26,676 bases of DNA from a virus. The stretch lies in IMG/VR virus record IMGVR_UViG_3300000117_000195, positions 1 through 26,676 of that record. One strand, given 5' to 3'. The position numbers were made by a program, and so were the translations under genes. Positions 2,894-22,105 of this stretch are shown in pieces. The notes below the pieces were generated by a model, which was not told the DNA's origin, did no database searches, and was given only the letters and a program-made list of their open reading frames with translations. The first letter of the stretch is position 1, and every line of letters begins with the position of its first letter.

Positions 2894-3208
2894 ATGGCAG
2901 TTCGTCAAAAGCAGACAATATTGAATACTGCATACAAGCAATTTAAAGAGTTTGAACTACCTTTAGATATAGAGTATAAAAATTATGTTGATATTGTTGG
3001 CCCAGGCCAGGCAATTCACCCTATTTCCGTAAAGAGGAGTTTTAAAAGCTGGAAGTATATTCTTCACGCTTTAAGACTAAACTATCCTGAGCTTTCACAG
3101 GCTCCAGTTGTAGTTTCGGAGCCTCCTGCTCCAGAGCCAAAAAGTGACCCTTTAACGGCTCTGAGCAAAGCTGCTGTACCCACAGCAGATCTTGAGAGTG
3201 ATGAGTAA
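2894..3208 (+). CDS. small unknown protein between portal and protease
   Basis: I do not recognise this 104-residue protein. The first 75 residues are mixed and basic-aromatic (FKSWKYILHALRLNYPEL) and could form a small helical domain. The last 30 are proline- and acid-rich (EPPAPEPKSDP) and likely disordered. It begins directly after the portal stop codon and ends in a UAAUG overlap with the protease-capsid gene, so it is co-translated with the head genes. The codon pattern and tight packing support a real gene. A head-assembly or packaging accessory role is inferred from position only. Confidence 0.75.
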   Translation: MAVRQKQTILNTAYKQFKEFELPLDIEYKNYVDIVGPGQAIHPISVKRSFKSWKYILHALRLNYPELSQAPVVVSEPPAPEPKSDPLTALSKAAVPTADLESDE

Positions 3209-5262
3209 TGAATAAAATTTTTAACCTCACCTCTACTTTTAAATCCCATGCAGCCGATGATGGCTCTGTCACAATTAAAGGTATGGCAAGTACCGTTGAT
3301 TTTGACCGTGCAGGAGATTCGATTTCTGCGGAAGCATGGACAAAAGGTGGATTAAAGAATTTTGAAAAGAATCCTATTATTCTTTTCAACCATGATTATG
3401 ACCGACCAATTGGTCGGGCCACAGGCCTAAAAGCAACAGAAAATGGTCTAGAGTTAGAAGCAAAAATTAGCAAATCTGCACCTGCTAATGTTTGCGAATT
3501 AGTTAAAGAAGGTATCCTTGGAGCATTTTCTGTTGGTTTCCGAGTCAAGGATGCTGATTATCTATCGGAAACTGACGGACTAAAGATAAAGGACGCTGAG
3601 TTGTTTGAAGTATCGGTTGTATCCGTTCCTTGCAATCAAGAGGCTACTTTCTCACTAGCGAAATCTTTTGACTCTATGGATGAGTATGAAGAATTCAAGA
3701 AAACTTTCACAAATCGTGTAGATCTAGCCGGTCAGACTCTGGCTAAAGACGAAGTTAATACTTCTAGCGTAGCTAGTGATACACCGGACGGAACCGAAGA
3801 GGTTCAAAAGGAGATCCAAATGTCTGAAGTTAATACTCCAGAAATCGACTTGGAAGCATTTGCTAAGAAAGTAGCAGAAGAAACTGCTGCAAAGATTGCA
3901 ATGAAGCAAGCCGAACAAAAAGCTGCGGATGAAGCCGTAGCACAAGAACTTGCTGAAAAAGCTCAAGCTGAAGCTGAAGCAAAAACTCAACAAGAAGAGC
4001 AAGTTAAAAGCGCAGTAGTAACTGCGGTTGAGACGGGCGCAGAAAAACTAATGGCCGACGTAGAGAAGAAGCTGTTTGAAAAAGATGCCCAAATCGAAGA
4101 AGTTGTTCTTCAGCATCAAAAAGAACTTCAAGAGAAATCTGAAGAAATCACCAAGATGCGTGAATCTAAGCGTGTTTTTACGGATCGTAACGTTAGCCGT
4201 TCCGATGCTATCCAAAAGAATAGCAAAGAACTTATGTATGCGCACCTTTTGGGTGTTATGACCAACAAAGGTTGGGAAACTGCATACGCTAAAGACGTTA
4301 TGGAAAAAGCCGGTCTTGAGTGGGACTCTGGTCTAGGTAGTGTAACTACTGGTGCTCCTGATATTGCTCAGGGTGTATCTACTCAAATCGAGCAGGAAAT
4401 CATGCTTGAGCTTAGACTGGCCCAAGCTTTCCGTGAAATTACCATTAACTCTGCTACTCAAGTGTTGCCTATCCAAACGGATGCACTGCCCGCAACTTGG
4501 GGCTCTAACACTGTAGCTGGTGGTAACTTGACTAACCGTCCTCAAATTGATGCAAATCAATTTAACGCTCGTCAAGTAATCTTGAAGGCTACGCGTCTTG
4601 TTTCTACTACGTTCATGGATAATGACGTTGATGAGCAAGTACTTGTTAACCTAATGCCTATGTTGACCGAATCTGTTGCTCGTGCTCACGCTCGCGCAGT
4701 TGATGCCTCCATTCTTAATGGTACGGCTGGCGGCAACGAAGGTTTTGATGGCTTGGAAGCTCTTGCAGGCAGCAACTTAGTATCAGCTCTTGATCTGGAT
4801 GCAACCGGCGGTACTGACTCAGCCGTAACCGCAGCAGAATTTCTTGCTGCTCGTAAGCTGATGGGTAAGTATGGCATGAATCCTTCTGATTTGGTCTACA
4901 TCGTTTCCCAGAAGCGTTACTATGATCTTATTGCCGATGCTGGCTTTGCTGATATTACTGATGTCGGCTCCGATATCGCTACCAAGATCATCGGTTCAGT
5001 AGGTGCAATCTACGGTACTCCTGTAGTTGTATCCGACGCTCTGGAAGGTGACGGCACGGATGGAAACTCTATCGGTTACGCAGTTAACGTTCGTAACCAT
5101 GTTATCCCACGTCTGCGCGGTGTAGCGGTAGAGCAGGACTATGAAGTTCTAAATCAGCGACGCGTAATTGTTGCTAGCCAATCTCTTGGCTTCAACCAGC
5201 TTGTCCCTAACAACGGTACTACTGACGTATCTGTTGTTAAACTGGTTCGTACTGACGCCTAA
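3208..5262 (+). CDS. prohead protease fused to major capsid protein
   Basis: A 684-residue single frame combining two proteins that are separate in HK97. Residues 1-150 are an S78-type prohead protease with the expected triad: H62 (FNHDYDRPIG), S108 (GAFSVGF) and E134 (ELFEVSVVSVP). Residues 160-205 are an acidic linker. Residues 206-325 form an alanine/glutamate/lysine-rich coiled-coil region that matches the scaffolding delta domain of HK97 capsid proteins. From about residue 335 onward is the HK97-fold capsid protein. In the family the protease digests the delta domain and itself after the shell forms; cleavage near residues 320-340 is inferred. An in-frame ATG at 3820 (M205) has AAGGAG six bases upstream, so a protease-free 480-residue capsid precursor can be made in excess. 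Arginine is almost all CGN in the capsid part, as in highly expressed genes. A terminator follows. Confidence 0.93.
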   Translation: MNKIFNLTSTFKSHAADDGSVTIKGMASTVDFDRAGDSISAEAWTKGGLKNFEKNPIILFNHDYDRPIGRATGLKATENGLELEAKISKSAPANVCELVKEGILGAFSVGFRVKDADYLSETDGLKIKDAELFEVSVVSVPCNQEATFSLAKSFDSMDEYEEFKKTFTNRVDLAGQTLAKDEVNTSSVASDTPDGTEEVQKEIQMSEVNTPEIDLEAFAKKVAEETAAKIAMKQAEQKAADEAVAQELAEKAQAEAEAKTQQEEQVKSAVVTAVETGAEKLMADVEKKLFEKDAQIEEVVLQHQKELQEKSEEITKMRESKRVFTDRNVSRSDAIQKNSKELMYAHLLGVMTNKGWETAYAKDVMEKAGLEWDSGLGSVTTGAPDIAQGVSTQIEQEIMLELRLAQAFREITINSATQVLPIQTDALPATWGSNTVAGGNLTNRPQIDANQFNARQVILKATRLVSTTFMDNDVDEQVLVNLMPMLTESVARAHARAVDASILNGTAGGNEGFDGLEALAGSNLVSALDLDATGGTDSAVTAAEFLAARKLMGKYGMNPSDLVYIVSQKRYYDLIADAGFADITDVGSDIATKIIGSVGAIYGTPVVVSDALEGDGTDGNSIGYAVNVRNHVIPRLRGVAVEQDYEVLNQRRVIVASQSLGFNQLVPNNGTTDVSVVKLVRTDA
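3806..3822 (+). promoter_or_regulatory. internal ribosome binding site and ATG inside protease-capsid gene
   Basis: AAAAGGAGA at 3806-3814 contains a full AAGGAG, followed after six bases by an in-frame ATG at 3820-3822. The position is exactly between the protease and the delta domain. The fusion's own start at 3208 has only weak purine-rich sequence upstream and depends on UAAUG coupling. This site probably sets a high ratio of capsid subunit to protease. Confidence 0.75.
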
Positions 5263-10176: not shown

Positions 10177-10623
10177 ATGGAACTTAAAAAATTAATGGTC
10201 GATAGTAAGTCTGTATGGATGGACTTTCCCGGCTTAGAGGGCTTTTCGGTAGAGGTTGCTAATCTTTCCAGAAAAGAGTTAAATGGTCTTAGAAAAAGAT
10301 GTACTACAACCAAGTTTGACAGAAAAACCCGGCAAGCTGTCGAGTCTTTAGACGAAGAAAAATTCGTTCAAGAATTCAGTAAAGCTAGTGTTAAGAACTG
10401 GAAAGGCTTAACTATATCCCATTTGGAAACATTAATTTTAATTGAAACAGATGGCCAGGAGCCCAGCAGTGAAGTAGAGTATACTTTAGATAATGCTGAA
10501 GTTTTAGTAACAAACTCAAGTGAATTTGACACATGGCTCAATGAGGTAGTCTTTGATTTAGATAATTTTCGTAGCCGAGCAAAAAAGTCTAGCACTAAAA
10601 AGACTGGAAATATTTCTTCGTAA
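10177..10623 (+). CDS. tail assembly chaperone, G product
   Basis: A 148-residue protein between the tail tube genes and the tape measure gene, the fixed place of the gpG/gpGT chaperone pair of long-tailed phages. It has a compact N-terminal domain (MELKKLMVDSKSVWMDFPG) and a charged, lysine/serine-rich C-terminus (from about 132). AAGGAG at 10161-10166 lies 10 bases before the ATG. The following frame (T) overlaps its 3' end without a Shine-Dalgarno sequence of its own. In the family G and GT coat the tape measure protein and recruit tube subunits. A slippery A6G run lies near its end. Confidence 0.75.
   Translation: MELKKLMVDSKSVWMDFPGLEGFSVEVANLSRKELNGLRKRCTTTKFDRKTRQAVESLDEEKFVQEFSKASVKNWKGLTISHLETLILIETDGQEPSSEVEYTLDNAEVLVTNSSEFDTWLNEVVFDLDNFRSRAKKSSTKKTGNISS
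10581..10587 (+). other. candidate programmed frameshift site AAAAAAG
   Basis: In the G frame the run reads gcA AAA AAG, the classic slippery heptamer. A -1 slip meets a TAG two codons later (10590-10592), so it cannot reach T. A -2 slip of lysyl-tRNA from AAG to AAA enters the T frame directly and continues AGT CTA GCA to the tape measure gene. T is open only from 10562, so any shift must occur between there and the G stop at 10621. The other candidate in that range is a +1 slip at TTT C (10567-10570). Confidence 0.5.
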
Positions 10624-10636
10624 CCTTGATTCGGGT

Positions 10637-10963
10637 ATGACGAGAGACAAGTATCTCTCGATGATGGAGCAGCTGGGAAAAGAGCCTATTGAGGATGAAA
10701 TACCTCCTGACTCCCATGATTTACCAGAGATATTTAATGCAGCAATATCTTGTTTTAGTATGCTAGGAGATAGAATATATCCAGAAATAGGGTATGTAGG
10801 CAAAGATTATACCAATCTTAATCACTTTATAGAATTTTATGACATTGAAGATATAGAATATTTCCTTGAAATTATTTATGTTTTAGAGTCCAGAGCTATC
10901 AAAAAATCTTCCGAGCAACTAAAGAGGGAGTATGATAAGCTAAAGAGAAAGTCTAATGGCTAA
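10637..10963 (+). CDS. tail assembly chaperone T part, probably made as a GT fusion
   Basis: The first ATG of this frame is at 10637, but no Shine-Dalgarno sequence precedes it. The frame is open back to 10562 and reads as real protein upstream of the ATG (SLALKRLEIFLRNLDSG). The product is therefore most likely a frameshift extension of G: about 137 residues of G plus 125 of T (262 in all) if slippage is at 10581-10587. The T segment is acidic near its start (GKEPIEDEIPPD) and lysine-rich at the end. Family knowledge: the T domain binds tube subunits while the G domain binds the tape measure protein, and the GT-to-G ratio matters for tail assembly. It overlaps the tape measure gene by 8 bases. 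Confidence 0.72.
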   Translation: MTRDKYLSMMEQLGKEPIEDEIPPDSHDLPEIFNAAISCFSMLGDRIYPEIGYVGKDYTNLNHFIEFYDIEDIEYFLEIIYVLESRAIKKSSEQLKREYDKLKRKSNG

Positions 10964-14903: not shown

Positions 14904-15628
14904 TGCCTACTTTTACTTCATTTCAAAATGTACTTCCTGACCCAAATAATACTATTGGTAGTGCGGGGCAGGTAAATGGAACTGCAGGTCCTGGCTTTGC
15001 GTCTGTAACTTTATCTTCTATTCAACCAACAATAAAAGATTTTACAAATTCAGGAAGATTATTAGCAAGAGCTATAGCTTCTCATAAATGGGAGATACAG
15101 ATTAAGTATAACCCTATGATTAGAGCAGACTTTGAAAGAATTTATACTTTTCTTCTTCAAAGACAGGGAGCTGTAAATCCTTTTTTTGTTTCTTTACCGC
15201 AACACAGAATTCCTCAAGACTCTACTTTTGCAACTTTTGCAGCAAGTAATAATCTTGAAGCAGCAGGAACAATAACTGCAGGAGCAACTACTGCGCTCCT
15301 TAGTAAGTCTGGCTATAGTAATACCACTAATAAAACTCCCTCTCCAGGGGACTTATTTACTATTGAGGGGACAAATTCAAATCATACTAAAACATACATG
15401 GTAACCCGAGTAGAGACCAGTGCAGATTACGACACCGGAGAATCTCAGCCATCCGCCACGCAAGTAAGAGTTCACTTTATACCAGGTATGGCAAAGCAGG
15501 TAGAAGCTGCCGATGATTTTATATTCCATAACCCTCTCATTAAAGTAATAGCAAAAGATTCACAAAAATATTCATTAAATACGAATAATTTATATAATTA
15601 TTCCTTGAGTTTAGAAGAAGTACAGTAA
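14903..15628 (+). CDS. minor distal tail protein (Dit/gpM-like position)
   Basis: A 241-residue protein between the tape measure and the central tail protein. The pattern HKWEIQIKYNPMIRADFERI, then a helix, then QGAVNPFFVSLP (about 63-100) resembles the Dit/gpM-type beta-barrel domain, in which a Trp strand is followed by a helix and a short G-x-x-x-F-F-x-x-x-P element. The middle (AGTITAGATTALLSKSG and GDLFTIEGTNSNHTKTYMV) looks like a small inserted beta domain. Such proteins form the ring joining the tube to the tail tip. It is flanked by UAAUG overlaps on both sides. The exact family is not certain. Confidence 0.65.
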   Translation: MPTFTSFQNVLPDPNNTIGSAGQVNGTAGPGFASVTLSSIQPTIKDFTNSGRLLARAIASHKWEIQIKYNPMIRADFERIYTFLLQRQGAVNPFFVSLPQHRIPQDSTFATFAASNNLEAAGTITAGATTALLSKSGYSNTTNKTPSPGDLFTIEGTNSNHTKTYMVTRVETSADYDTGESQPSATQVRVHFIPGMAKQVEAADDFIFHNPLIKVIAKDSQKYSLNTNNLYNYSLSLEEVQ

Positions 15629-18600
15629 TGGCAATTAGAACTTTAAATACAAATTTACGTAACTCCCTTCTTATAGAGGAGCCCTTTGCTTACGCGCACC
15701 TGGTCAAGTTTGAGAAGCCTTTAAAGACAGACGGAGGGAAAAGCGCACGAAGAGCAAAGGATTATATTTATGTAACAGATGGCTCTAGGGATATTGTCTT
15801 TAATGACGGGAGCTCCGACGTTGCAGGAAACTCTAATGGAAATCAAACTTACGTAGCCAATAAGCTTACTAAGGTAGGCGCAGTGTCGGAGACTATTCAA
15901 GCAAAAGCTTCTTCTATGACACTAAATGTGTCCTCTGCGGCATTGAAAACTACTCTTACTACTACTCTTACTACTACGGCTTCCTCTATTACAGCTACAG
16001 ACGATCTTGTGGAAGCGGGGTTTAGAGAGGGAGATTTAGTAACTATTTATAACGGCACAAATGATAGCAAATCTATAAGAATAAATACTTTCTCGAATAA
16101 TAATCTTACAGCGAATATAACTGCTATTGATACAATTAGTAGCGAGTCTTCGGCAACAAGAACTCTGCAGCTTAGTAGTCCTGAAGTAGAGGGCGTAATA
16201 AGCAATAGAAGTAGTAATAGTTACGCACGCTATATAAATAGAGATGTTTTTGTATATAAAGTACATATAGATATCTCTACAGGTGCTGCTATAGGTACTC
16301 CTTATTTAATATTCAAAGGAATTATATCCCAAGGAAAAATTTCCGAAGATATAACAAAATCTTCTATAGTATCATGGACTCTTACTAGTCATTGGGCTGA
16401 TTTTTCTAGAATCCAGGGGAGACTAACATCAGATTCTTATCATAGAGCTTTGGACGGCAATAATAAGCCTGATCCTGAAGCTCTAACTCGTCCAGCTTAT
16501 GCTAAGGATCTTGGATTTGCACACAGTGAGCAGGCAGTAAATCTTATAGCAACATATCAAGTAAATGAAACTCGCTATAAAGAGAAAAAGCGCGGAGGTT
16601 TGGCAGGAGTATTTGGCGGAAAAAAATTAGTAGAGTATGAAGTAGAGGTAGACAGGGAAACAGACTTACGATTTAATTTGGACGCAAAGTACCTTCCTGT
16701 AGTGTATGGTGTAAATAAGATAGACAGCATTCCCTTCTTTGTAGATGCTCTTAACAGTGACGCCAAAAAAGTTTTCTGCGCATATGCTCTGTGTGAGGGT
16801 GAAGTTGGAGGAATATATGACGTTTATTTAGATGATACCTCTTCTATCTGTGTTGATGAAAATGACAGAGATACTCGCAGTCAGCAAACTTCTGAGGGAA
16901 CAGTTGATGTACTTTGTGTTGGTCGAATGGATAAGGGAGATACCTTAACTGGCCAAAATGTTCTTACAGGAAGCACCTTTTCTGCTTCCGGACACTCTGA
17001 GTCTAATGGATACATAGATTGGGCTGAAGTAGATCAGGCAGAAAAAGAAACTTATCAAGTACAATATGATTATCAAGCTCCAACAGATTCTGCTTTCACT
17101 TTTGGAGCAAGTAATAGTGCAGCAGGAATAACTCATGAAAAAGGTACTAGTTTTACTAGCCCTATAAACGCGAAGCTGTTATTTCATTCTGGAAAAGAGG
17201 AGCAAAAAGCTGACCAACTACTTTTAAGAAATGCTGGTAACTTTAAAATAGGTACTGATTATTATAATGGTAGTGCAGATTATTGGGGAGGAAACCATAG
17301 GGTTCTAGATACTGCATATGCAGTTGTTGAATACACTATAGGAGAGGGGGATACCACTATTCCTTCCCTGGACTTTGTAGTCAGGGGAAAGGGATTAAAG
17401 TGCTTTAATTATGACTTTTCTTATGAACAACATCCTAGCTATACAGGTACTGATGCTGCCCTTTCTAATTTTGATTTAGGCGAAGAAGTAACTATAAAAA
17501 AGACTTCTGATAACTCTACTTTGGGCACAGTAAAAATTGCTGATATATATCAAATAACTGAAATGTCTGGGGCGGCTAAAAATCTAGTTAGATTTATGGA
17601 GAAACCTCCTATAGGTTCCACCACATCTTTTTATATGACTAGTGGCAGTGGCAGTAATACTTATCATATGCAAACTTATGATAACTTAGAAAATACTGGA
17701 GCAGTACAAACTACTCTATCCAAACAAATTACATCTGCTTCAGCGAACAGCAATGGAGTCTCTACAGATATAACTTTTGGTACTTTAAACTCCACTTTTA
17801 TAGACGCCTTTAGTCTTGGTAGTGCTATTGCTATTTCTGGTAGTGACGCTGGAACTTTCACCAAAGATAAACTTAATCATTATTCTTTTGCATATTCCGG
17901 TAGTGGTAATACTATAACAAACGTAGGCAATACGGGAACAAATGCATCTAACTTAGTAAATTCTTATGTAATATTAAAAAACTGCGTCAGACTCGCTTCT
18001 ACAGCCAGCTCTTCTGATGATGCGTATAATGGATTATTTATTGAAATCACTAAAACTTTGAATGATGGTAGTATTTTAAAACAAAAAAGAAAAATAGTTG
18101 ACTATGATGGCAGCTCTCGTATAGCAAAAGTTTCTAGTGTGTTTGAGGAAGAGCAGTTACCTACTTCAGGAGATACTTACAAGATTCTGAGCACAGATGA
18201 TGATATTCGTGTATCTACAAATCCGGCAATCCAATTATTAGACTATTTAACTAGTAAAAGGTACGGTCGGGATTTAGACATAGAAGAGGATATCGATCTT
18301 GAGTCTTTTCTAGCTTCGGCACGCGCATGTGATACCAGATCTGATGTCACTATATTAACTACTGTATCTACTGTACAAGTGGGTGCGGTTTACCAGTATG
18401 CAGCAGCTTCTGGAAAAGTCTTATTTCAAGGTGAGGTAAAAAGTATAACCAATGAGACTATAGGGGGCACTTCGTACAAATCTATAGTTTTAACTAATGT
18501 TTTGGGCAAACTTGCTCATCGTTGGGAGAACTGGAAGTATTTCTATACTGACGAACTCTACTACTATGAGGGAGCTTTACATAAGGCTTCTTCTAATGGG

Positions 18601-21384
18601 GTAATTGGTACTCCTTCTACTACTCCTAGTGTTAGTACCTTTAACATTACAAAAGTTAGTGGGTCCGGTGCTACTAATATTGTAGTAGACAGAGATCCTA
18701 CTCGAAAAACTTTCGACGGGAACCCTGTAATTAAAAAGCATTCTGGAGGAGGTTCTTTCTCTTCTGGGTATAATTTATATGATTCTGATGATGTTAAATA
18801 TTGGAGGTATTTAGGCTGGGAGTCTCAAAACCAAAGACATGTGACGCGACACCAAACAAATGCTGTTATAAATACTAATAAACCTATCTTTGATAATATT
18901 AATGGAATGCTCGGACATTTTAATGGTATGCTAAGGTACTCTAATGGTAAGTACTCCTTAGGGGTTAAAGGAACGTTTACTACCCCGTCTACTATAACCG
19001 TAAATTCTACTGATTATATAGCAGAAGATATTGACGAAGGAGATATAATTGGTAGCATATCCGTTGAAGATGCTGGACAGAAGGGAACGTATAATCAAAT
19101 TGACGTCGCTATAAATGACCCCCAAAACAGGTTTGAGTCAAGGTCAGTAGCTTTGTTTAATTCTACTTATCTCAAAGAAGATAGGATGGTCCCTAAAAAG
19201 GGGTCAATTCGCACCCCCTATATTACTAATTACTATAATGCAAGAATTAACGCAAAACAATACTTAGAAGAATCACGATCCAGTCTTAAGATAGGATTTA
19301 CTATTGGTCCAAAAGGCATTTTATTTGTTGCTGGCAATGTTATTAGAGTAACATATCCGCGCTTTGGTTGGACTAATAAGTTATTTAGGGTATCTAACTT
19401 AGCTTTTAATGAAAACTGTACAACTCAAGTAACCGCTTTTGAGCATAGTGATGATGCTTACTTAATTACTGCCCCCGTAGCAAAAGGAGTAATTCAACAG
19501 GTAGAACCGGGCATAGGTAATATACCCGTACCTGGTGCACCCTCAAGCCTAAATGCTACTCAAAACGATAGGGGAGGAATTGAGTTAACATGGACAAATT
19601 CTAGTTCCTTTAATGCCGCAACCTATAGTGTACAGATATGGAGGGGAACTGCAAATAATCTTGCTCATTCTACCACAAAACTTGTGGGAACTTCTAAGAG
19701 CGATATATACACCGATATAATTACAGGGGAAGGAGCTCAGACATTATATTATTGGATACGTTATAGTGTTCTGGTTCCTAATCAGCGAATAAATACTCGC
19801 GCACCCAGGGAAGTTTTCTCTGCTTATCACCCTGTTAGCCCCACAGGCGGTGTAGTAGGTATTTCTGATGGCGCTAGAGATGCAATTTCAGTAAATCTTA
19901 CTAACGATAATGTTAGTGTTTTAGCTGATGCATCCGGAACGCCCACTAGCTTTAATAATACAAGTATAAGCATAACCGCTTTTATAGGAACTACTGCCTT
20001 AAATTACGATGATACTGTTGCTTATGCCAAGCCTTCGTTTAGGGTTTCTAATGTAAGTATATCTTCTGGTATAACTGCGGGTACGGCTAGTAGTACTTCA
20101 ACCTCGTATACCCGCCAGAATATTTCTGCTATGTCTGCGGATACGGGCTCCATAACATATACTATTATTGTTACAGATTCTTTAGGCGGCACCACTACAT
20201 TTGAGAAGATACAAACCTTTACTAAAAGTAGAAGAGGAGTTGACGGGCAACCCGGACAAGACGGACAGGCAGGACAAGCTGGAGCTACAGGTCCCAGGAC
20301 AGCTAGTGCTGTACTATATTATCAAAGCAGTTCTTCTTCTGCCCCTACTGCCCCCACTGCTAGCGGCTATAGCTTTTCTACAGGGCTTTTTGCTTCGCAT
20401 ACTTCTGGATGGGCTGAACAAGCGCCTACATTTGCTGCTGGTAATGCGAATAAATACTGGTATGTGCGGGTAACTATTGAAGAAAGTAGCTATGCGGGAA
20501 CGCAAAGTATCTCTATTGGCAACGTTATCCAGGGAATAGGGTTTACTGGACTAGTTACCTTTACAAGCTCCCAAGAAGTGGGGGATGGAAATAATTCTCT
20601 AAGCTTCGGAGAACAAGGCACTACAACTATTGATGGTGGACAGATTACAACTGGTACAATTGATGCACAAAGACTAAACGTGGGTCAGATAAATGTAACA
20701 CAAACTTTAAACTATCAAGCTAATCCTACTCAGGTTAGTCAGCTACAGAATAATTCCGGATATCAGACTAATGCATTTACTCAACCAGCACAAATAAATG
20801 TTACTCAAACAAACAACTACTCTGCACCACCAACAAACACAAATCAGTTAACAAATGGGGCGGGGTTTCAAACTAACGCATTTACTAATCCAGGCCAAAT
20901 AAATGTTGCTCAAACTCAGAATTATCAAGCCAACCCCACGCAGATTACTCAGCTCCAGAATAATGCCAACTACCAGTCCGGCTTAAGCAATTTAAGTCAA
21001 TTTACTAATGGTCCCGGCTTTCAATCTGGTTTGAGCAATTTAAGTCAATTTCAAAATGGTCCTGGATATCAAACTAATGCACAGACTAACGCCTTTACTC
21101 AACCAGGGCAGATAAATGTTACTCAAACAACTAACTATGTTGCGCCTCCCACTCAAACAGGACAATTAAATAATAACTCTGGCTTTCAGACTGCTGCTAT
21201 TGAATTTAGTGCCACCGCTATTAGTGGAGGTAAGATTGGCTTATCCACAGCAGGCTTAATTATAGGAAATGGACAAACTTCAATTTCCTCCTCAAATACA
21301 ATTATTTTAGATACTACTTCAGGAAATAACACGATTAAGATATTTGATGGGGGAACTTTAAGAGTAAAAATTGGAAAGTTATAA
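15628..21384 (+). CDS. central tail protein / tail tip hub with fibre-like C-terminus (gpJ-like)
   Basis: A 1918-residue protein, likely the trimeric tail tip that contacts the host. The N-terminal half is beta-rich. Residues near 866-882 (NPAIQLLDYLTSKRYG) carry the signature typical of gpJ-like proteins, and residues about 1090-1290 form a hub-like domain (GSISVEDAGQKGTYNQIDVA, FGWTNKLFRVSNLAF). A fibronectin III-like domain follows at about 1303-1400 (PGAPSSLNAT, IELTWTNSS, LYYWIRYSVL). Seven Gly-X-Y triplets lie at 1537-1557, then a beta domain with NKYWYVRVTIEE. The C-terminus has four copies of a 35-residue repeat (1687-1855) and a final 60-residue cap. It starts by UAAUG overlap and ends two bases from the convergent oxygenase stop. 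Receptor binding by the repeat region is inferred. Confidence 0.87.
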   Translation: MAIRTLNTNLRNSLLIEEPFAYAHLVKFEKPLKTDGGKSARRAKDYIYVTDGSRDIVFNDGSSDVAGNSNGNQTYVANKLTKVGAVSETIQAKASSMTLNVSSAALKTTLTTTLTTTASSITATDDLVEAGFREGDLVTIYNGTNDSKSIRINTFSNNNLTANITAIDTISSESSATRTLQLSSPEVEGVISNRSSNSYARYINRDVFVYKVHIDISTGAAIGTPYLIFKGIISQGKISEDITKSSIVSWTLTSHWADFSRIQGRLTSDSYHRALDGNNKPDPEALTRPAYAKDLGFAHSEQAVNLIATYQVNETRYKEKKRGGLAGVFGGKKLVEYEVEVDRETDLRFNLDAKYLPVVYGVNKIDSIPFFVDALNSDAKKVFCAYALCEGEVGGIYDVYLDDTSSICVDENDRDTRSQQTSEGTVDVLCVGRMDKGDTLTGQNVLTGSTFSASGHSESNGYIDWAEVDQAEKETYQVQYDYQAPTDSAFTFGASNSAAGITHEKGTSFTSPINAKLLFHSGKEEQKADQLLLRNAGNFKIGTDYYNGSADYWGGNHRVLDTAYAVVEYTIGEGDTTIPSLDFVVRGKGLKCFNYDFSYEQHPSYTGTDAALSNFDLGEEVTIKKTSDNSTLGTVKIADIYQITEMSGAAKNLVRFMEKPPIGSTTSFYMTSGSGSNTYHMQTYDNLENTGAVQTTLSKQITSASANSNGVSTDITFGTLNSTFIDAFSLGSAIAISGSDAGTFTKDKLNHYSFAYSGSGNTITNVGNTGTNASNLVNSYVILKNCVRLASTASSSDDAYNGLFIEITKTLNDGSILKQKRKIVDYDGSSRIAKVSSVFEEEQLPTSGDTYKILSTDDDIRVSTNPAIQLLDYLTSKRYGRDLDIEEDIDLESFLASARACDTRSDVTILTTVSTVQVGAVYQYAAASGKVLFQGEVKSITNETIGGTSYKSIVLTNVLGKLAHRWENWKYFYTDELYYYEGALHKASSNGVIGTPSTTPSVSTFNITKVSGSGATNIVVDRDPTRKTFDGNPVIKKHSGGGSFSSGYNLYDSDDVKYWRYLGWESQNQRHVTRHQTNAVINTNKPIFDNINGMLGHFNGMLRYSNGKYSLGVKGTFTTPSTITVNSTDYIAEDIDEGDIIGSISVEDAGQKGTYNQIDVAINDPQNRFESRSVALFNSTYLKEDRMVPKKGSIRTPYITNYYNARINAKQYLEESRSSLKIGFTIGPKGILFVAGNVIRVTYPRFGWTNKLFRVSNLAFNENCTTQVTAFEHSDDAYLITAPVAKGVIQQVEPGIGNIPVPGAPSSLNATQNDRGGIELTWTNSSSFNAATYSVQIWRGTANNLAHSTTKLVGTSKSDIYTDIITGEGAQTLYYWIRYSVLVPNQRINTRAPREVFSAYHPVSPTGGVVGISDGARDAISVNLTNDNVSVLADASGTPTSFNNTSISITAFIGTTALNYDDTVAYAKPSFRVSNVSISSGITAGTASSTSTSYTRQNISAMSADTGSITYTIIVTDSLGGTTTFEKIQTFTKSRRGVDGQPGQDGQAGQAGATGPRTASAVLYYQSSSSSAPTAPTASGYSFSTGLFASHTSGWAEQAPTFAAGNANKYWYVRVTIEESSYAGTQSISIGNVIQGIGFTGLVTFTSSQEVGDGNNSLSFGEQGTTTIDGGQITTGTIDAQRLNVGQINVTQTLNYQANPTQVSQLQNNSGYQTNAFTQPAQINVTQTNNYSAPPTNTNQLTNGAGFQTNAFTNPGQINVAQTQNYQANPTQITQLQNNANYQSGLSNLSQFTNGPGFQSGLSNLSQFQNGPGYQTNAQTNAFTQPGQINVTQTTNYVAPPTQTGQLNNNSGFQTAAIEFSATAISGGKIGLSTAGLIIGNGQTSISSSNTIILDTTSGNNTIKIFDGGTLRVKIGKL
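20236..20298 (+). repeat. collagen-like Gly-X-Y segment in tail tip protein
   Basis: Residues 1537-1557 of the tail tip protein are seven Gly-X-Y triplets (GVD GQP GQD GQA GQA GAT GPR). Such short segments in phage fibres form or nucleate a trimeric stalk. It separates the hub and FN3 part from the distal repeats. Confidence 0.8.
20686..21192 (+). repeat. 35-residue tandem repeats in tail tip C-terminus
   Basis: Four units begin with QINVTQT or QINVAQT (residues 1687, 1722, 1757 and 1828). Each continues as NY.A.PTQ...QL.N..G[YF]QTNAFT.PG; the spacing is 35 residues (105 bases) for the first two. The third unit is about twice as long because it contains two copies of a shorter motif, SGLSNLSQF followed by NGPGFQ. 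Copies match well in protein but less in DNA, so they are old. Confidence 0.88.
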
Positions 21385-21386
21385 GG

Positions 21387-22016
21387 TCAAGAGTCTGTTT
21401 GGCTTTCTTCGAGAGTAACGAAAGTTGTTATGCTATACCGACCCATTCCGGATTTTTCTGGCTTTTGTAGTATTACTGGAGAGACTTCATGAATGCATGT
21501 TGAGGGAAATATAAGCATTGAGTTATTTTCACAGTTAAATCCTACTTCATCGTTTAGAGTAAGCTCTCCTCCTTCGAACTGTTTAGGCTCTTTGTAAAGC
21601 CAAGTTAAAGTAGTTAATACAGATCTGTCTCTGTGGGGTTTATATTCTCCGCTATTTTCGTAGTAAGAAAGAAGTGTTGAGAAGCGAGAGTTTTGTATTA
21701 AGTACTCAAACCATGAGTGTTCTGAAGCTAATGTTTGTGCTAAGCCGGAAGAGTATATTTTCATGTTGTGAGATAAAATTGCAGACATCTCAATCTGTTT
21801 ATATAAATGATTAATCCATAGGCCTTTATTATTTTTTAAAGCAATTTTATCAGGAGTCATTGCACTTCCGCTTTGCTCCGGATCTAGCCAAATATTTTTT
21901 CTACTTTGTAGATAGTCCAGCTCTAGAAAAAGCTCAGACAACTCTTCTTCTGAGTATAAATCTTTTATATACACATAGGGAGTTTTATTGGTTAGTTCTT
22001 TTATTTCGTATTCCAT
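21387..22016 (-). CDS. 2OG-Fe(II) oxygenase (prolyl hydroxylase-like)
   Basis: A 209-residue enzyme with the 2-oxoglutarate/iron dioxygenase signature: an iron triad H128-x-D130 (KPHRDRS) and H176 (CIHEVSP), an oxoglutarate-binding R193 (GRYSITT), and the family motif FEGGELTL at 147-154. These enzymes oxidise a protein, nucleic acid or small molecule using 2-oxoglutarate and oxygen; the substrate cannot be read from sequence. The ATG at 22016 is preceded by AAAGGA at 7 bases and by a consensus promoter. The longer frame starting at 22091 would begin upstream of that promoter and is rejected. It is the only minus-strand gene here and sits convergent to the tail tip gene, so it looks like an independently expressed insertion. 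Phage relatives are known, with roles mostly unproven. Confidence 0.88.
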   Translation of the reverse strand: MEYEIKELTNKTPYVYIKDLYSEEELSELFLELDYLQSRKNIWLDPEQSGSAMTPDKIALKNNKGLWINHLYKQIEMSAILSHNMKIYSSGLAQTLASEHSWFEYLIQNSRFSTLLSYYENSGEYKPHRDRSVLTTLTWLYKEPKQFEGGELTLNDEVGFNCENNSMLIFPSTCIHEVSPVILQKPEKSGMGRYSITTFVTLEESQTDS

Positions 22017-22041
22017 TATACATTCCTTTAAGTGAGCCGTT

Positions 22042-22070
22042 ATTATACTATAAATTAGTAAACTTGTCAA
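22042..22070 (-). promoter_or_regulatory. consensus promoter of the oxygenase gene
   Basis: Read on the minus strand, TTGACA (22070-22065) and TATAAT (22047-22042) are separated by 17 bases; both hexamers are perfect. Transcription should begin near 22035, about 19 bases before the oxygenase ATG, leaving just enough room for its AAAGGA site. Confidence 0.85.
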
Positions 22071-22105
22071 GATATTTTTTGGTATAACCACTTAAAAAAT
22101 AATTC

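Follow-up and report, generated by a model that had tools for sequence, protein, structure and literature searches.

Tail chaperone frameshifts and related +1 sites

Chaperone frameshifts of the -1, the -2 and the +1 type have been listed for tailed phages by Atkins et al. (PMC5009743). In phage lambda, the gpG/gpGT pair is encoded ahead of the tape measure gene, and a -1 slip on a heptamer near the end of G yields the longer G-T product next to the short G protein (PMC5009743). Access to T by a shift other than -1 is represented by Mu (-2) and by the haloarchaeal virus HSTV-2 (probable +1) (PMC5009743). Forward slips also occur in other settings. The PA-X protein of influenza A depends on a +1 shift at UCC_UUU_CGU, a site that is used at a low level and has no known 3' stimulator (PMC8310308; PMC5009743). 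In bacteria, the prfB (RF2) gene shifts by +1 through re-pairing of the P-site tRNA at CUU_U, which is UUU_U in a minority of species (PMC5009743).

The locus analyzed here lies in a window of 26,676 nucleotides, a viral record of 26.7 kb from a marine phage with a head-tail gene order (IMG/VR record IMGVR_UViG_3300000117_000195, positions 1 to 26,676). It carries a variant of the known G/GT system, and the new element is the probable +1 access to T at UUU_C. Genes G and GT very probably constitute a lambda-like tail assembly chaperone pair whose fusion protein would be made by +1 programmed ribosomal frameshifting at this site. The arrangement before the tape measure gene is the same as in lambda, whereas the slip differs, being -1 on a heptamer in lambda and apparently +1 on UUU_C in the window. 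The likeness to Mu and HSTV-2 concerns access to T by a shift other than -1, and Mu differs in slipping by -2. The P- and A-site codons UUU_CGU of PA-X are identical to those of the window, whose probable shift is also +1, but PA-X is an unrelated protein of a eukaryotic virus, made on a eukaryotic ribosome, and CGU is rare in its hosts. At prfB the stall is caused by a stop codon, whereas the window site is followed by a sense codon and implies no autoregulation.

Layout of the G-T locus

Gene G (10177..10623, plus strand) is an open reading frame with a ribosome binding site, which in normal reading gives a protein of 148 aa, ends at the stop codon 10621-10623 and matches phrog_313 (E 1e-14). 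The T frame is open for 133 codons on the same strand (10562-10963), lies in frame +1/-2 relative to G and overlaps the last ~60 bases of G, as an earlier note on this DNA had described; 137 loci share this layout. The same note had proposed that T is reached by a shift other than -1, which holds, T being in the +1 frame and the -1 frame being open for just 13 codons at the overlap. A TTT C at 10567-10570 (plus strand), followed in the zero frame by CGT, is the inferred slip site, and an A AAA AAG in phase with G lies downstream at 10581-10587. The T domain read after a +1 slip (10571..10963, plus strand, from VAEQK to the stop codon) matches phrog_3914 (E 5e-15), and T-frame codon periodicity begins directly after the site. 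The deduced translation of the fusion (10177-10569 joined to 10571-10963, plus strand) would be 261 aa long. Upstream of G and T are two genes for tube-type proteins and downstream is a tape measure gene, identified as phrog_3779 in a PHROGs search, so that the two overlapping frames, both assigned to tail assembly chaperone families, are flanked by a major tail protein gene and the tape measure gene. A lambda-type -1 heptamer was rejected for the window, where T occupies the +1 frame and a -1 slip at A AAA AAG, as noted before, meets TAG at once. The sequence itself shows the frames, the invariant site, the protein families and, for T, a coding constraint that sets in at the site.

An invariant TTT_C across the +1 group

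Scans of IMG/VR, phage isolate records and MAG contigs yielded 248 distinct G-T loci. Of these, 137 have T in the +1 frame, and the recurrence of the same layout in so many distinct loci shows that the arrangement in the window is not due to chance. Each of the 137 has exactly one in-frame TTT_C inside the stretch that is open in both frames; at the junction of the frames, an in-phase UUU with C as the next base is conserved. This comparison among relatives favours TTT_C, mentioned in the earlier note only as the alternative, over the A-run. The surroundings of the site are variable. The codon before TTT can be AAC, AAT, ACT, CAC, TCT, TCC, GAG or others, the codon after it is CGT, CGC, CGA, CGG, CAC or CAA, and the distance from TTT to the G stop codon ranges from 3 to 87 nt. 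Pectobacterium phage My1 and Vibrio phage 70E38.1 represent the extreme, as G ends there in TTT CGT TAA, one codon past TTT, and the T frame opens just 6 nt ahead of TTC. This G end and the short overlap make downstream sites unusable and pin the shift to TTT_C.

Codon choice at the site departs from that in the rest of G. Among 131 relatives, the ratio of TTT to TTC is 131:0 at the site and 678:182 at other conserved Phe columns. The Arg codon after the site is CGN in 127 cases and AGR in none, compared to 351:278 elsewhere in G, where AGR accounts for 278 of 629 Arg codons; four relatives have His or Gln in place of Arg and keep the C. In Providencia phages a Phe-Arg pair five codons upstream is written TTC CGT and the site itself TTT CGT. 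As the loci share ancestry and are not independent, these counts describe constraint rather than exact probabilities and overstate the number of events.

The position at which coding constraint passes from G to T was followed in 75 ungapped relatives. Upstream of the site, variability is highest at third positions of the G frame (0.397 vs 0.124 and 0.090). Between TTTCG and the position of the A-run (from +6) it is highest at third positions of the T frame (0.577 vs 0.451 and 0.422), a moderate contrast over a stretch of 15 nt only, and beyond the A-run position it again peaks at T third positions. The case against the A-run is carried by the invariant TTT_C and the short-overlap phages and not by these 15 nt.

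Other routes to T

The earlier note had preferred a Mu-like -2 slip on A AAA AAG (10581-10587), joining AKK to SLALK. The run is indeed in phase with G, a -2 slip there would reach T, and Mu does use -2 (PMC5009743). Nevertheless, this preference did not hold up. An AAAAAAG or AAAAAAA lies in phase shortly downstream in only 8 of 131 relatives, the run is missing in T5, My1, 70E38.1 and the other Demerecviridae examined although the T frame is unchanged, and a -2 slip gives no account of the invariant TTT_C upstream. A conserved site permitting a Mu-type -2 slip is thus lacking, the A-run in the window is probably unused, and a -2 shift must be considered very unlikely.

Synthesis of T on its own from the ATG at 10637..10639, perhaps translationally coupled to G, is likewise highly improbable. 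T is given an internal start in the annotation of many records, and its internal Met is conserved in 74 of 75 ungapped relatives, but the ATG has no Shine-Dalgarno match in the window or in 105 of 121 relatives, as had been noted for the window, whereas G starts with a match of at least 3 bases in 111 of 113. The protein-like sequence that had been recognized ahead of this ATG proved to be conserved in the marine group as well as in the T5 group, the codon rhythm of T is present also between the G stop codon and the ATG, and a separate start offers no reason for TTT_C. The ATG is therefore probably no start codon. The lack of a T start with a ribosome binding site, together with the conserved slip site, is strong sequence evidence for a T that would be made solely by extending G through a frameshift.

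The earlier note had named as a possible refutation a sequencing error in the A-run, by which T would have been displaced from the customary -1 frame. Errors are frequent in homopolymer runs, and the majority of lambda-type chaperones slip by -1, but this reading is practically refuted by the relatives, since T has the same +1 frame at 137 distinct loci, which come from many assemblies and also from isolate genomes such as T5.

Proposed mechanism of the +1 slip

The +1 slip would take place with the Phe codon UUU (10567-10569) in the ribosomal P site and CGU as the next codon. With its anticodon GAA, tRNA-Phe pairs fully with UUC but needs a G-U wobble for UUU, so that a move of one base forward improves pairing. 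The peptidyl-tRNA-Phe may therefore sometimes release its codon and re-pair one base forward on UUC, upon which GUA would be read next and translation would continue in the T frame to give the GT protein of 261 aa. The majority of ribosomes would stay in frame and stop at 10621-10623 to give G. The slip efficiency is presumably low, and low-level slipping would fit the molar ratio of 30:1 described for the lambda chaperones (PMC5009743). In a G/GT system, G is expected to be in large excess over GT and neither protein to be present in virions; by analogy with lambda, G may bind the tape measure protein and T the tube protein. Codon usage in the window is 6.7 per 1000 for CGT and 19.4 per 1000 for AGA, and CGU is not known to be a slow codon in the host. 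A host scan returned six MAG contigs from mixed taxa (Gammaproteobacteria, Halieaceae, Betaproteobacteria, Neomarinimicrobiota, Bacteroidetes) and indicated no single host. The genome of Yersinia phage phiR2-01 carries the same site, and a +1 slip in this phage would give a tryptic junction peptide ending in ETVFQLDNFVAQSR.

A stimulatory RNA structure was not found at +6..+66 from the site. Further downstream, inside T, the stretches +45..+120 and +105..+165 of the relatives are more stable than shuffled sequences (mean z about -1.2 to -1.5), compared to a mean z of about -0.1 for a control stretch taken from G. When base pairs were counted at fixed offsets, no single stem covaried across all relatives at +45..+120, and the structure in T occurs in at least two registers among them. 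The window has a 7-bp hairpin at 10641-10660, right behind the internal ATG. It is too distant from the slip site for an ordinary stimulator and might, as a guess, block initiation at this ATG.

Distant relatives of the -1 group

The remaining 111 loci are more distant relatives that have T in the -1 frame, always together with one canonical in-phase -1 heptamer, A_AAT_TTT in 66 and A_AAA_AAC in 45. The A_AAT_TTT sites fall on the same Asn-Phe codons as the +1 site, and the A_AAA_AAC sites are located further downstream. The homologous Phe codon, invariably TTT_C in the +1 group (137/137), is invariably TTT_A where the heptamer is A_AAT_TTT (66/66). Where the heptamer is A_AAA_AAC and the slip lies elsewhere, it is TTT_G (19), TTT_T (16), TTC_T (9) or TTT_A (1). 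In the -1 relatives it is never followed by C. Taken over the groups, the frame of T and the kind of slip site agree in 248/248 loci, and the -1 cousins are a natural control for the slip site.

In unrooted trees of G, which leave the order of events unset, the -1 state appears as one or two groups; one tree needs two changes of direction and another needs one, and the direction has thus changed at least once. Ten +1 loci (L132, L136, L138, L151, L154, L155, L159, L164, L166 and L174) have GAA AAT TTT CGN at the slip site, in which both signals, A_AAT_TTT and TTT_C, overlap. A -1 slip at these loci would add 1 to 21 codons. They are possibly intermediates of the change in direction, or sites that slip both ways. 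It appears likely that one homologous family of tail chaperones, T5 included, has switched its frameshift direction in evolution, in some lineages on identical Asn-Phe codons (UUU_C for +1 and A_AAU_UUU for -1), with the ten double-signal loci as possible intermediates. Slips in opposite directions at one place in homologous genes make the evolution of frameshift direction testable.

T5, the Demerecviridae and their annotation

The genes T5.143/T5.142 of phage T5 and their counterparts in the other Demerecviridae examined are homologous to G and T and have the frame and the site of the window, in the form TTT_CGT or TTT_CGA. Unlike the arrangement proposed here, the records of T5 and of most Demerecviridae examined annotate G and T as two separate genes. 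Klebsiella phage Sugarland has been reported to be without a frameshift signal, "similar to T5" (PMC6256483), and its sequence carries the same site as ACT TTT CGT, the T frame opening 6 nt upstream. The record of Salmonella phage Sw2 annotates a frameshift product, from which it follows that others have suspected a slip. No published +1 frameshift site in T5-like chaperones was found among open papers. T is annotated from assorted internal starts in NC_041913, NC_055800, NC_018837, NC_048041, NC_042095 and other T5-like records, and in the Thalassa record its start is placed inside G. The internal T starts in T5-like records are probably wrong.

The model phage T5 and its family would thus gain a tail chaperone fusion that was likely missing and for which published annotation saw no signal, and T would be corrected in many records whose sampled annotations begin at internal starts. 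The loci also provide a large natural data set on bacterial +1 slipping at UUU_C, the site of influenza PA-X.

Other genes in the window

The frame at 3208-5262 encodes 684 aa as a single unit, with a Peptidase_S78 prohead protease domain at its start followed by ~500 aa more, and perhaps unites a protease with a capsid protein in a single gene. The sole long gene-like frame on the minus strand (21387-22091) is situated amid the tail genes, and its product, judged by eye, looks like a 2-oxoglutarate/Fe(II) hydroxylase. A tail-type protein of 1918 aa is encoded at 15628-21384 and has C-terminal repeats, likewise recognized by eye, of the type QINVTQTxNYxAxPTxxxQLxN.
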